32,191 nucleotides of DNA from Flavobacteriia bacterium (lineage in GTDB: Bacteria > Bacteroidota > Bacteroidia > Flavobacteriales > Weeksellaceae), in contig JACFND010000022.1 of the NCBI GenBank assembly GCA_019455045.1, positions 8,774 through 40,964 of the forward strand, written 5' to 3'. The notes under the pieces were generated by a model. It did no database searches. It had not been told where the DNA came from and saw only the letters and a program-made list of their open reading frames with translations. Below, piece after piece: positions 28,206-32,191 of the stretch (the stretch's first letter is position 1; the number at the start of each line of letters is the position of its first letter). The translations under genes were made by a program, and so were the position numbers.

Positions 28206-28826
28206 TTACCATTTCCAAAAAGGTGCTTTGCCGAATTTCAATCTTATCTTTTTTGCTTTCTTAAATTCTAAAAAACGCTTCTCATTCATGGGACCATATA
28301 TCGAATCTTTCTTTTTGTTGATGATATAATAATTGACCTGGGATTTAAAAATATTTTGATAAAAGGCCTCATTTTCAAATATCTTTTTTGCCACTTCTTG
28401 ATAGGTTTTTATGGAGTCCTTTGTCAGTTGAAATACGGAATCCAAATCTTTTTTGTACAGCTTACTGATTTGTTTATCGGTAACCAAATGGGGAAAAGAG
28501 ATGACAGGTGAATCATTTTCGTAGTGATAGGCATATAAGATTCGCAAACTACTTTCAATTCTCTCCAGCATTAAATCTCGATTCGGCTTTTGCATGGCGA
28601 TAATCCAGGAGCCATTTTCACCATACTTATCAACATCAGAATAGACCACAATAGTATCAAAGGTTTTATATCCCCAATGATTGTTATTTGATTTGTAGAT
28701 TAATGTACCATAGGGGTAACCGATATCCACTGATGTAAAGTCGTCTAAAAAATAATATCTTTCTTTATCTGATTGACAATTCAATATGAAAATATCTAAG
28801 AGCAGGAAAATTACAATTTTCTTCAT
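28206..28826 (-). CDS. Putative lipoprotein next to RHS tip, candidate immunity protein
   Basis: 206 residues, function not recognised. The N-terminus MKKIVIFLLLDIFILNC looks like a lipoprotein signal with C17 as the acylated residue; the residues before it (ILN) are a loose lipobox, tolerated in Bacteroidota. The next residues QSDKE resemble, but do not exactly match, lipoprotein export signals that send lipoproteins to the cell surface in this phylum. The rest is a charged, lysine-rich soluble domain. The start overlaps the stop of the RHS fragment by 4 bp (28823-28826), so the two are translationally coupled. Together with the strong AT bias this fits a cognate immunity or accessory protein. 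That role is inference from position only. Confidence 0.7.
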   Translation of the reverse strand: MKKIVIFLLLDIFILNCQSDKERYYFLDDFTSVDIGYPYGTLIYKSNNNHWGYKTFDTIVVYSDVDKYGENGSWIIAMQKPNRDLMLERIESSLRILYAYHYENDSPVISFPHLVTDKQISKLYKKDLDSVFQLTKDSIKTYQEVAKKIFENEAFYQNIFKSQVNYYIINKKKDSIYGPMNEKRFLEFKKAKKIRLKFGKAPFWKW

Positions 28827-30445
28827 TTTTTTAATTGAATTTGTGGATTTTTATAGTGAATATTATAAGTTCTAAACTTGTGATGATATTGCTCCATAGT
28901 CCTAGGGCGTCCGAAATCGGTAAGTAAATTTCTCACAAAAATTGCTATACTGGTATTTTTCAATATGTCATAATGGTAATCCTGATCCAACACTTCGACT
29001 ATCCCCTTTTCCACACTAATTATTTTAAAACTGGTTCCACCATAAGTAGCAGCAGTTTCATAAGGTAATTTTCGAAATGCTTCTACTGTCCCAATATAAA
29101 ATTCGTCTCCATCCTTGAGACCTTTTGGTATTTTTAATCCGGTCCAATCAATGTATTGATTATCAACTGTTATATCTTTTGCTTCAGTTACCCCCCAGAG
29201 ATCCGCTTCATCCTTTTGTAGTTTTCCATCACCATTTAAGTCCCAAGGTTTCGGGTCTTTCTGCTGACCCTTATCTCCTTTCTTCGGTTTTCCATTGTCA
29301 AAATCTCTTTCTGTATCGGTTACATTCTCCTCACCTCCATAATTTACATCGCCTCCCTCCGGATCCTCCGCACCTTCTGGCAAATTTAGCTTAATCCGCC
29401 ACCCGAGAAAATCAAATTCAACATAATTCGAACTTTCATCAAAGAACAGATCAATTTCTATATCTCCTTCCCATAGTCCGGTAGGATCATTAAAAGCAAC
29501 AGGGTTGTTGAAGGCAAATCTGTATGGACTCCAGTCAGGAGAAACCTCGGAGAGCAGATCCGGGTTGTGAAATCTGCCGACTGCCGGGTCATAGTTTCTG
29601 AAATCCATCGCATACCAATCCAGGTTATTGTCATCCTGCCATTCGCGGTTGTTGTATTTGTAATCATAACGCGCATGAAGTGAAACGACATCCAATGGGT
29701 TTTCCGGATTCACTGCTTTGTCTGTTTCATTGTTTATGGCTTCAATTCTTCCGGTTGGTGCTGAATATTTTTGATGCATTAATCCGAAAGGATAATAATG
29801 ATTTTCTTCCAGTATTTTCAGTTTCCCTGTCAGGTGATCCATTGAGTAAGACAGTCGTACATTACCCAAGTGGTCGGTATAGTTAAAAACATAACTGTAA
29901 GCATAGCCGGTAGGCGGAGCGCCGGGTGTAATATTTCCGGCCGGTGTTGCTCTCACATATCCCTCCGCAGTAGGAAAGAAATTCAGCATTTCACCCGCAT
30001 ACTGAAAACCGTCTAAGTAATCCACTTCTATTCTCACTTCGGGGGTGGCAGTTTCCTCAATAACCGTCTTTTTCAGTTTTACGCCTGCCGCATTGTAGGT
30101 ATATTCAATTGAGTTTGAATTTTCAAAAATAATCAACTCAGGCAGATTGAGATAGTTGTATGTGATAGAGGTGATTCCTTTGTTTCTGTCCTTTACCATT
30201 GAGCTTCGCTCGGTTTCTTCGCAAAAGACTTTCTCAAAGTCTTTTGCTCGAAAATCGTTTGCATCGTATTCATAATCGTCCAATGCCGGATTGGTATTGC
30301 CGTCCACAAAGCCCATGCTGTTTCCGGTGCTTACCGCATCGCTAACATTCAGAAGCAGGTTTGAGTTTCCGTTGCCACCCGAATAATCGTAGCTTAGTAT
30401 ATCCATGTCTATTCTCATTTCATTATTTGAGATTTTCATTTTCAA
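28823..30445 (-). CDS. Displaced RHS core with distinct C-terminal tip (orphan toxin module)
   Basis: 540 residues with no signal peptide. YD-repeat sequence begins at once (IDMDILSYDYSGGNGN, YEYDAN, ITYNYLNLPELI), followed by the RHS core (YDYKYNNREWQDD, NYDPAVGRFHNPD, SPYRFAFNNPVAFNDPTG) ending at residue 324. The tip (326-540) has an EF-hand-like loop DLNGDGKLQKDE (402-413) after a Lys/Asp-rich linker, and a C-terminus with MEQYHHKFRTYNIHYKN. I recognise no toxin family in it. The frame opens with TTG at 30445, overlapping the previous stop by 4 bp; ATG at 30439 is the alternative. Residues 64-82 are an in-frame insertion made of palindromes. Without an N-terminal export region it is probably a cassette that donates its tip to the full-length RHS gene. 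Confidence 0.8.
   Translation of the reverse strand: MKMKISNNEMRIDMDILSYDYSGGNGNSNLLLNVSDAVSTGNSMGFVDGNTNPALDDYEYDANDFRAKDFEKVFCEETERSSMVKDRNKGITSITYNYLNLPELIIFENSNSIEYTYNAAGVKLKKTVIEETATPEVRIEVDYLDGFQYAGEMLNFFPTAEGYVRATPAGNITPGAPPTGYAYSYVFNYTDHLGNVRLSYSMDHLTGKLKILEENHYYPFGLMHQKYSAPTGRIEAINNETDKAVNPENPLDVVSLHARYDYKYNNREWQDDNNLDWYAMDFRNYDPAVGRFHNPDLLSEVSPDWSPYRFAFNNPVAFNDPTGLWEGDIEIDLFFDESSNYVEFDFLGWRIKLNLPEGAEDPEGGDVNYGGEENVTDTERDFDNGKPKKGDKGQQKDPKPWDLNGDGKLQKDEADLWGVTEAKDITVDNQYIDWTGLKIPKGLKDGDEFYIGTVEAFRKLPYETAATYGGTSFKIISVEKGIVEVLDQDYHYDILKNTSIAIFVRNLLTDFGRPRTMEQYHHKFRTYNIHYKNPQIQLKK
29781..30072. repeat. Duplicated RHS segment, copy 1
   Basis: Aligns without gaps to 31900-32191 (offset 2119), with about 30 differences by eye, mostly silent. 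It encodes KTVIEETATPEV through ENHYYPFGL. Left of 29781 similarity stops abruptly. On the right, copy 2 continues to the window edge. Confidence 0.9.
30200..30256 (-). repeat. In-frame palindromic insertion inside the displaced RHS gene
   Basis: 57 bp (19 codons) between YEYDAN and MVKDRNKG, where the usual Bacteroidota RHS pattern reads continuously. It contains a perfect 12-bp inverted repeat with 3-nt loop (30221-30247, arms GCAAAAGACTTT) and a smaller GAGC-TTC-GCTC hairpin (30201-30211). Both reading-frame continuity and RHS motifs on either side are preserved. Confidence 0.7.
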
Positions 30446-30864
30446 TAATCTTCCAAAAACTTCCTTATTTCTTCTTTATCCACTGGTATTGGCAATTCTT
30501 TCCAGCCTTCGGGTGGTGCTTCTGTAATGCTATCAGGGACAACAAGAAACGGCAAAAGCACAGAATTCTTAGGTCTTAAACTGTCAAAAACGACAAAATA
30601 TTTTCCCAAAGGTAAATGTGCATATTTTCCTCTGCGTTCATAATAAAACCTGCCATTCATCTTTTTATCTTCTAAAAAATAATGGTAGCGATAGTGATTG
30701 CTTCTCGTTTCGTTTCTTTGTTGAGTAATTTCTCCTATGGTATATTTTTGGTTTTCATATATTTTAGATAAATTGTTTTTTGCATAAATATTTCCAAAGT
30801 ATATAAAAATTAAAAAGACGATAAAGCCAATAATAACCATTATAACATCTTTAAGAGTAGGCAT
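30442..30864 (-). CDS. Single-pass membrane protein between RHS modules, candidate immunity protein
   Basis: 140 residues, not recognised. One N-terminal hydrophobic helix (about 7-26, VIMVIIGFIVFLIFIYFGNI) is followed by a soluble basic domain with strands such as YTIGEITQQRNETRSNHYRYHYFLEDKKMNGRFYY and GKYFVVFDSL. The N-in/C-out orientation would put the domain in the periplasm. It starts 2 bp after the stop of the first RHS gene and overlaps the next RHS start by 4 bp. Its place directly downstream of a toxin tip is that of an immunity gene, but Bacteroidota RHS loci also carry such small membrane proteins as accessory genes. It is clearly AT-rich. Confidence 0.65.
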   Translation of the reverse strand: MPTLKDVIMVIIGFIVFLIFIYFGNIYAKNNLSKIYENQKYTIGEITQQRNETRSNHYRYHYFLEDKKMNGRFYYERRGKYAHLPLGKYFVVFDSLRPKNSVLLPFLVVPDSITEAPPEGWKELPIPVDKEEIRKFLEDY

Positions 30865-30866
30865 AA

Positions 30867-32191
30867 TTATTTAAATCGTGAATTAATAATTTCAGAATTC
30901 CCTTGTGTTTGAAAAGATTGAATACCATTTGAAAAAATGAAACTTCCAACCTTACTACTCCAGTCTGAACTTACTGCTGAAGTCCCCACTCCGGACAAGT
31001 TACCTAAATAGCCGCCGATTACTTTGGCTGAAGACTTTTGATAATCAACAGGCTTATCCTTTAAAATATTATTTTGTAAAACATCAGCCCCTTCACTCAT
31101 TATTGGCGACAATGCAGTCCCGGCTTTTCCCGGCAACACAGACCCGGCTACGGCATTACCCCAGTTCACGTCTCCGGTTATTGCATACTGAGCCGTAGCA
31201 TCAATCGCTATTTTTCCTGCTGTTTTCAAAACATATAAACCAAATTTGGTCTCAGCTATTACCGAGCCATACAAGGCTACTTCAGGAGCCAATACAACTG
31301 CAAATACTCCCACTGCAAACCATTCACCTTCTCTCTTTGCCAGTTGCATTTTTATATATCCGCCTCTGTTTTCAGGCGATAGCATATTTCTGTATGCACC
31401 GTGAATACTTTTTTCTCCATCGGCACCAAAAAGTCCTCTTGTTGCATTTAACCTGGGTAAGAACCCCCATGAAAATACAGAAGAACTTTCGGTTTTGGGT
31501 TTCTTTTCAGGAGCTTTAGCCGTAAGAACTGCTGTTTCCAAAACAATCGGCTCGTCCTCATTAAAGATATCATCTCCCGGGCCTACCTGCATTCCATCCG
31601 GGTCAATAAAATATACCGGATTATTGAGTGCATAGGTATAAGGACTGTGAGAAAAGTATTTAGGAGCCATCGGGTCTGTGACATTCCACCTCCCAATCGT
31701 CGGATCATAATTCCTTGCCCCATAGTCGTAGAAGTTCAACCCCAACTCATCTTGGAACTCTTTGCCGTTGTATTTATACTGATACTCCATTCTTGTCACA
31801 TAATCAAGCACAGGCGGCAGACCGGGTTCGGGTTCTATTCCGTCTCCGGGGTTTCTTGAGAAATCCAGTTTTGAGCCGGTTAAATAAACTTCGTGCCTCA
31901 ATCCAAATGGATAATAATGATTTTCTTCCAATATTTTGAGTTTTCCTGTCAGATGATCCATTGAGTAAGACAGCCATACATTGCCAAGATGATCGGTATA
32001 GTTAAAAACATAACTGTAAGCATAACCGGTAGGCGGAGCGCCGGGGGTAATGTTTCCGGTTGGTGTTGCTCTGACATATCCCTCGGCAGTAGGGAAGAAG
32101 TTCAGCATTTCACCGGCGTACTGAAAACCGTCCAAATAATCCACTTCTATTCTCACTTCGGGGGTGGCAGTTTCCTCAATAACCGTCTTTT
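30867..32191 (-). CDS. RHS-repeat protein, C-terminal part (open at window edge)
   Basis: The frame runs to the window edge without a start: residues before the internal GTG at 32156 read KTVIEETATPE, matching the other RHS copy. So the N-terminus lies outside. The RHS core is YQYKYNGKEFQDELGLNFYDYGARNYDPTIGRW, then SHSPYTYALNNPVYFIDPDG, which marks the end of the shell and usual autoproteolysis site. The tip of about 240 residues (coding 30867-31589) starts at MQVGPGDDIF. It contains an ETAVLTAKAPEKKP linker common in Bacteroidota RHS proteins and a small-residue-rich hydrophobic stretch (EWFAVGVFAVVLAPEVALYG). No nuclease, deaminase or protease signature is seen. Cells would release such a tip into neighbours or the envelope (family knowledge); the activity is unknown. 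Confidence 0.85.
   Translation of the reverse strand, partial: KTVIEETATPEVRIEVDYLDGFQYAGEMLNFFPTAEGYVRATPTGNITPGAPPTGYAYSYVFNYTDHLGNVWLSYSMDHLTGKLKILEENHYYPFGLRHEVYLTGSKLDFSRNPGDGIEPEPGLPPVLDYVTRMEYQYKYNGKEFQDELGLNFYDYGARNYDPTIGRWNVTDPMAPKYFSHSPYTYALNNPVYFIDPDGMQVGPGDDIFNEDEPIVLETAVLTAKAPEKKPKTESSSVFSWGFLPRLNATRGLFGADGEKSIHGAYRNMLSPENRGGYIKMQLAKREGEWFAVGVFAVVLAPEVALYGSVIAETKFGLYVLKTAGKIAIDATAQYAITGDVNWGNAVAGSVLPGKAGTALSPIMSEGADVLQNNILKDKPVDYQKSSAKVIGGYLGNLSGVGTSAVSSDWSSKVGSFIFSNGIQSFQTQGNSEIINSRFK
31900..32191. repeat. Duplicated RHS segment, copy 2
   Basis: Partner of 29781-30072. It runs into the window edge, so the duplication may be longer. Confidence 0.9.

Follow-up and report, generated by a model that had tools for sequence, protein, structure and literature searches.

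The minus strand of positions 28206–32191 of the 32,191-nucleotide stretch analysed here (the window; contig JACFND010000022.1 of a Flavobacteriia bacterium, hereafter C99, positions 8774–40964) carries four closely packed genes: RHS1, the C-terminal part of an RHS protein with its variable end, or tip (tip 1); P2, a small membrane protein; RHS2, a second RHS core fragment with a different tip (tip 2); and P4, a predicted lipoprotein (Table 1). By comparison with related genomes we find that the tips are linked to the genes directly downstream of them, and that a mosaic breakpoint in RHS1 joins a core like that of the RHS gene on contig C82 of the same genome to a tip 1 like that on contig C2. 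The explanation that best accounts for the locus, and which we consider probable with some reserve, is that an array of RHS polymorphic toxins ends here on its 3' side, and that its displaced cassettes would encode a colicin M (ColM)-like tip 2 with P4 and a membrane-acting tip 1 with P2.

The initial annotation had described four minus-strand genes with RHS motifs, chained by 2-bp gaps or 4-bp overlaps, and this anatomy was borne out. Two bp separate the RHS1 stop from the ATG of P2, and RHS2 and P4 overlap by 4 bp (ATGA). The 4-bp overlap of P2 and RHS2 depends on a TTG start at 30445; starting at the ATG two codons on (30439) leaves a 2-bp gap. Both RHS proteins match the Rhs_assc_core model TIGR03696 (59.6 bits for RHS1 and 51.5 bits for RHS2, cut-off 32.5), the RHS1 core is similar to the solved RHS cores of TcdB2/TccC3 and YenC2, and the boundaries between core and tip lie at DPDG in RHS1 (residues 196–199) and at DPTG in RHS2 (residues 320–323). 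In scans of the four proteins with Pfam, NCBIfam, PADLOC and PHROGs, the RHS core alone scored above cut-off. Since the same pairs of tip and partner recur in other genomes, the four-gene arrangement is not a product of chance.

This recurrence was found by following each tip together with its downstream gene, the survey that the initial annotation had proposed. A search of 320 genomes of the family with a tip-1-only alignment gave 15 strong matches in 10 genomes, and in 15 of 15 a P2-family gene lies −77 to +7 bp downstream. A paralogue on C2 has a tip 80% like tip 1, followed by a P2 homologue, and C26 holds a divergent tip-1/P2 pair. Window-type tip 2 occurs in four loci on unrelated scaffolds, with a P4-like lipoprotein gene directly downstream in all four: the window, Flavobacteriaceae bacterium Ap0902 (a short open reading frame within an array of toxin/lipoprotein cassettes), Flavobacterium limi (a displaced cassette of 396 residues, whose tip is 55–57% identical to that of the window) and G458, a second genome of the family of F. 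limi, where the tip ends a full-length RHS protein of 2194 residues. The annotation had also raised the case that partners might be found just as often away from these tips. This is not what we find, with the qualification that the P2 type extends to a wider family, found also apart from tip 1: of about 35 distinct relatives of P2, 14 stand behind a tip-1 homologue and two behind other RHS tips, the remainder being preceded by other open reading frames or by none. For P4, a homologue (56% identity) in G106 has no tip-2 neighbour.

Tip 2 also belongs to a wider family, present in Chryseobacterium-like and other genomes, in which the partners differ from P4. Of the genes directly downstream of family tips, 12 of 13 begin with a hydrophobic stretch ending in a lipobox-like Cys at 16–22. 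Scanning the genome contigs with the single sequence of tip 2 gave no relative, and neither viral contigs (no tip-2 relative) nor plasmids (no tip-2 family member) added to the family. In Ap0902 (L041/L069) short toxin tips stand in an array with a lipoprotein gene after each; among these tips are a second ColM-like one, itself distant, and one with a HEG-H stretch resembling that of metalloproteases.

At the DNA level the two RHS genes are mosaics. Between 32191 and about 31771, RHS1 shows 85–98% identity to the C82 gene, which then falls to 50%; exactly from this drop, and through the end of the core, RHS1 is 90–100% identical to C2. Between about 30385 and about 29794 the DNA of the RHS2 core shows 78–100% identity to the C82 RHS gene; past that point the two are unrelated. 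This mosaicism shows that tips have been exchanged within the genome. The initial annotation had named tips conserved across strains, with no exchange, as a result that would speak against it; what we find, in the mosaic DNA and on the unrelated scaffolds, is exchange of tips between scaffolds.

Where the complete gene of this array lies is suggested by the contig ends. The window stops exactly at the end of C99 (40964), so that RHS1 has lost its 5' part and nothing in the window shows it to be a complete main toxin. The terminal 55 nucleotides of C2 are those of the 3' end of P2 at 30450–30504, the terminal 55 nucleotides of C99 are those of the RHS2 core at 30018–30072, and no other contig end in the genome carries either stretch. 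The simplest reading is that a tandem repeat was collapsed by a k=55 assembler, in which case the order would be the C2 main gene, P2', RHS1, P2, RHS2 and P4. These shared ends suggest that the main gene, with a tip 1' and P2', lies on C2 and that RHS1 and RHS2 are orphans behind it. The candidate on C2, outside the window and joined to it by this argument, encodes 1199 residues with a DUF6443 domain and, by eye, a Sec-like start. Thus, of the proposal of a main toxin followed by an orphan cassette, the second half stands, RHS2 being displaced with its own core fragment, while RHS1, which the contig end truncates, is probably a further orphan, and the full-length gene probably that on C2.

The initial annotation had recognised no family in either tip or either partner. 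This holds for tip 1, which has no match in Pfam, NCBIfam, PHROG or the PDB, and for P2 and P4, which have none above cut-off (for P2 in profile libraries or among solved structures); tip 2, however, appears to resemble the catalytic domain of ColM. A profile of the 12-member tip-2 family, compared with all PDB sequences, ranks five colicin M entries first (E 0.01); the alignment covers residues 132–265, with the DKYDF motif in register. With hhalign the family profile matches ColM at 81.6% probability (reversed ColM, 0.1%), and the ColM score of 20.1 bits compares with a maximum of 9.8 among 5000 shuffles. The fold model of the window tip, itself of low confidence (predicted local distance difference test score, pLDDT, 58; predicted template modelling score, pTM, 0.52), points the same way. 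Foldseek placed pectocin M structures best, without significance, and VIA-align of this low-confidence model returned pectocins M2, M2 and M1 first (Z 4.0, 4.0 and 3.7; root-mean-square deviation 3.3–3.8 over 90–100 residues, in the catalytic half), with colicin M itself at Z 3.0 and 2.7. Taken together, the family profile and the model make a ColM-like mode of action probable for tip 2, which we claim as a distant ColM-like tip, not as a member of Pfam Colicin_M (PF14859).

Several points weigh against parts of this reading. The window subfamily of tip 2 (A4), compared with ColM by itself, reaches a probability of 0.7% and ranks 203 among shuffles, so that the link to ColM runs through the wider family. 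PF14859 matches neither tip 2 nor any of the 12 family members; over 148 genomes of the phylum it gave one sub-threshold match, to an unrelated protein without similarity to the tip-2 family. In ColM D226, Y228, D229, H235 and R236 are all essential, and any change of D226 abolishes activity (PMC8469651). The essential Asp226 aligns with Gln in the window tip and Asp229 with His, and the ColM motif DxYDx5HR (PMC5821083, PMC8469651) is absent: several relatives retain DTYDF or DKYDF followed by R-N, L107, L108 and L111 keeping DxYDF…R without the His, and the window clade reads LDQDYHYD…VRN. It is this degenerate motif (QDYHY…R) that keeps tip 2 out of PF14859. The ColM family is known to include degenerate motifs, some with doubtful catalysis (PMC5821083). 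Beyond tip 2, the order of the array derives from k-mer overlaps, not from reads, and a membrane role of tip 1 lacks any fold support.

The closest competitor to a ColM-like tip 2 accepts toxin/immunity cassettes and makes tip 2 some other beta-rich toxin, its likeness to ColM arising by chance from the wider family or from the low-confidence model. It gains from the silent sequence of the window subfamily, the best VIA-align Z of only 4.0 at pLDDT 58 and the lost catalytic Asp, and we regard it as a doubtful contender. The family sequence profile and the fold of the window tip nevertheless both rank ColM relatives first, aligning the same C-terminal catalytic domain, and the window subfamily is joined to the wider family independently of ColM: a profile of the window and Ap0902 tips alone reaches G358 at 2.8e-5, and L070 is confirmed by tblastn from the window tip at 3e-8. 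That RHS2 is instead a decaying remnant, with only P4 retained, to give immunity as an orphan gene when neighbours deploy tip 2, strikes us as unlikely. The lack of an export signal of its own, the inserted palindrome and the solitary P4 homologue in G106 would fit such decay; nonetheless, nothing interrupts the reading frame of RHS2, which the insert preserves, and the tip has kept its identity to that of F. limi.

An artefact of assembly, in which the P2–RHS2 junction is a wrong turn at a 55-nucleotide k-mer and RHS2 and P4 in fact follow P2' on C2, seems to us similarly improbable. The end of C2 is identical over 55 nucleotides to the 3' end of P2, so that RHS2 could belong to either; yet the dangling end of RHS1 shares exactly 55 nucleotides with the RHS2 core, no further contig end has either stretch, and one collapsed segment in a tandem array explains both contig ends together. 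The tip–partner pairs are in any case independent of this junction. We give still less credence to P2 and P4 being chaperones or delivery adaptors. Adjacency alone would suit that role as well as immunity, but the type of partner follows the tip and not the scaffold, both partners are of membrane or lipoprotein type, and relatives of P2 and P4 also stand alone, as orphan immunity genes do.

We therefore return to an RHS array with displaced cassettes as the preferred reading. The locus would be the 3' end of the array and would hold two displaced cassettes in tandem, each made of an RHS core fragment, a tip and a putative immunity gene. Homologous recombination in the conserved core would transfer a tip together with its partner to the main, exported RHS gene, presumably the 1199-residue protein on C2, with a collapsed segment of about 490 bp lying between C2 and the window. 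We infer toxin roles for the tips and immunity roles for the partners. Colicin M is lethal to bacteria because it destroys a component from which the cell wall is built; tip 2, as a divergent relative, would attack, within a rival's periplasm, either lipid II or an undecaprenyl-linked substrate close to it, and lipoprotein P4 would bind and block the tip there. With less confidence, and by analogy with ionophore toxins of contact-dependent inhibition (CDI; PMC11630599), tip 1 may act at the inner membrane, with the single-helix membrane protein P2 protecting against it. Tip 1 contains a single hydrophobic stretch, which peaks at 1.97 across 19 residues, and has no profile match; the hydrophobic peak of P2 spans residues 8–26, consistent with one N-terminal helix, and the protein bears a conserved motif, VPDSI..AP..GWKELP.

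A further possibility, which we put forward only tentatively, is that Bacteroidota RHS toxins carry a previously undescribed clade of tips in which an EF-hand-like loop precedes a ColM fold, and within which the window subclade, its Asp pair replaced (QDYHY), may cleave the lipid carrier through a different active site or hit a different undecaprenyl-linked substrate, with a new family of lipoproteins blocking it. Several tip-2 family members give weak, sub-threshold EF-hand matches. The ColM review does not mention Bacteroidetes (PMC5821083), and no account of Bacteroidota RHS tips resembling ColM turned up in the literature searched, which omits most subscription journals and preprints.

Another RHS gene of the genome is consistent with action in the periplasm. 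The tip of the C82 gene (L003 778–3543) is an Amidase_3 peptidoglycan hydrolase (E 5e-34), so that this scaffold also carries a cell-wall toxin, and a candidate lipoprotein of 223 residues follows it; the two together suggest that RHS tips in this genome act in the periplasm. With respect to export, 60 matches to the sorting domain of the type IX secretion system (T9SS) were counted in the genome and none to VipB, the sheath protein of the type VI secretion system.

Table 1. Features of the RHS locus (positions in the window).
Feature	Position	Strand	Description
RHS1	30867..32189	−	C-terminal part of RHS core with tip 1; reading frame open at contig end (5' cut)
P2	30442..30864	−	140 residues with one transmembrane helix at the N-terminus; candidate for immunity against tip 1
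RHS2	28823..30445	−	Displaced orphan RHS core fragment with tip 2
P4	28206..28826	−	Predicted lipoprotein of 206 residues (Cys17); candidate immunity protein for tip 2
Tip 1	30870..31592	−	241 residues beyond DPDG, including a single strongly hydrophobic stretch (VGVFAVVLAPEVALYGSVI); candidate toxin acting at the membrane
Tip 2 domain	28826..29293	−	156 residues (385–540 of RHS2), ColM-like by the low-confidence model and the family profile; candidate lipid-II-directed toxin
EF-hand-like loop	29207..29242	−	DLNGDGKLQKDE, at the start of tip 2; from sequence
LDQDYHYD…VRN stretch	28926..28990	−	Aligned to the ColM active-site motif (D226-K-Y-D-F-N…R), degenerate; from superfamily and ColM alignments
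Segment matching contig ends	30018..30504	−	The 55 nucleotides at each of its ends are found unchanged at contig ends C2:1 and C99:40964; C2 probably joins the locus here through a collapsed tandem repeat
In-frame insert, ~56 nucleotides	30201..30256	−	Perfect inverted repeat (CAAAAGACTTT-GAG-AAAGTCTTTTG) within the RHS2 core

The insert in the RHS2 core (DFRAKDFEKVFCEETERSS) was looked for by two pattern searches; it is absent from the C82 core and present in one copy in this genome. A related insert (DYGAKSFHKVFGEHTKRSD) occurs at a different RHS core site in G083, in three copies (L049 at about 4913 and 6623; L050 at about 4456), and both recall in-frame palindromic elements. Two loci (L013 and L036) have P2-like genes adjacent in tandem, resembling polyimmunity loci. 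In G458 a small protein with a T9SS sorting-domain-like region and a YD-like start, as judged by eye, is encoded (L065 11099–11587) directly upstream of the full-length RHS gene with the tip-2 homologue. In the roughly 1.2 kb downstream of P4 (27000–28205) no convincing gene was seen. Among candidates tried and rejected, DUF3997 for P4 (a sub-threshold match in three P4 homologues) and Chordopox_G3 for P2 fell below cut-off, and ankyrin matches to tip 1 in the solved-structure search were put down to chance. A fold search with the P4 model (pLDDT 55) gave no meaningful match.

For RHS tips with lipoprotein partners in Chryseobacterium-like and Flavobacterium genomes, a family unrecognised by Pfam and NCBIfam, these results offer a testable mechanism, attack on a lipid-linked cell-wall precursor. 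If true, the ColM fold would extend to Bacteroidota RHS systems, with lipoproteins giving immunity. The tandem cassettes and the sharp mosaic breakpoint show how tips get swapped in Bacteroidota.

The nearest likeness of tip 2 is to the colicin M family (PF14859; colicin M, pectocins M1 and M2, PaeM; PMC5821083, PMC8469651), which shares an apparent resemblance in catalytic-domain fold, the DxYDF…R kept by the wider tip-2 family, membrane-anchored partners acting from the periplasm (here predicted) and many unrelated partner families for one toxin family. In contrast, tip 2 has no Pfam match, is borne on an RHS scaffold without a receptor domain, follows an EF-hand-like loop, has QDYHY in place of DxYDF in the window clade and is partnered by a lipoprotein. 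ColM-like toxins beyond the classical bacteriocins, with immunity proteins other than Cmi, are also described in the available excerpts of two reports, on a DUF3289 effector with DUF943 immunity (PMC11148199) and on a ColM-fold toxin with a membrane-anchored BamE-like immunity protein (PMC12419801). Their carriers differ, the excerpts do not describe the tip-2 RHS family, and in Pfam scans that family had no DUF3289 match.

For tip 1 and P2 the model is the CDI ionophore toxins, which likewise pair a hydrophobic tip with a membrane-protein immunity partner (PMC11630599). The likeness is without apparent sequence relation, and the CDI partners are two-helix hairpins of 72–100 residues; P2, by contrast, combines a single helix with a soluble domain of some 110 residues. 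The TANFOR polymorphic toxins of Bacteroidetes (PMC7073777) share variable C-terminal toxins with adjacent immunity genes, T9SS-bearing hosts and a toxin domain sometimes encoded by the next gene; their N-terminal carrier differs, and BaCT of TANFOR is a DNase. In arrangement the locus is most readily compared with the orphan Rhs module of Salmonella Typhimurium LT2, which has a downstream core fragment, a different tip, its own immunity gene, no export signal and core homology permitting recombination, and such modules come into use once they have recombined with the main gene (PMC3967940). Here, by comparison, the scaffold is a Bacteroidota RHS protein with a DUF6443 N-terminus, there are probably two cassettes in tandem, and the partners are of membrane and lipoprotein types.

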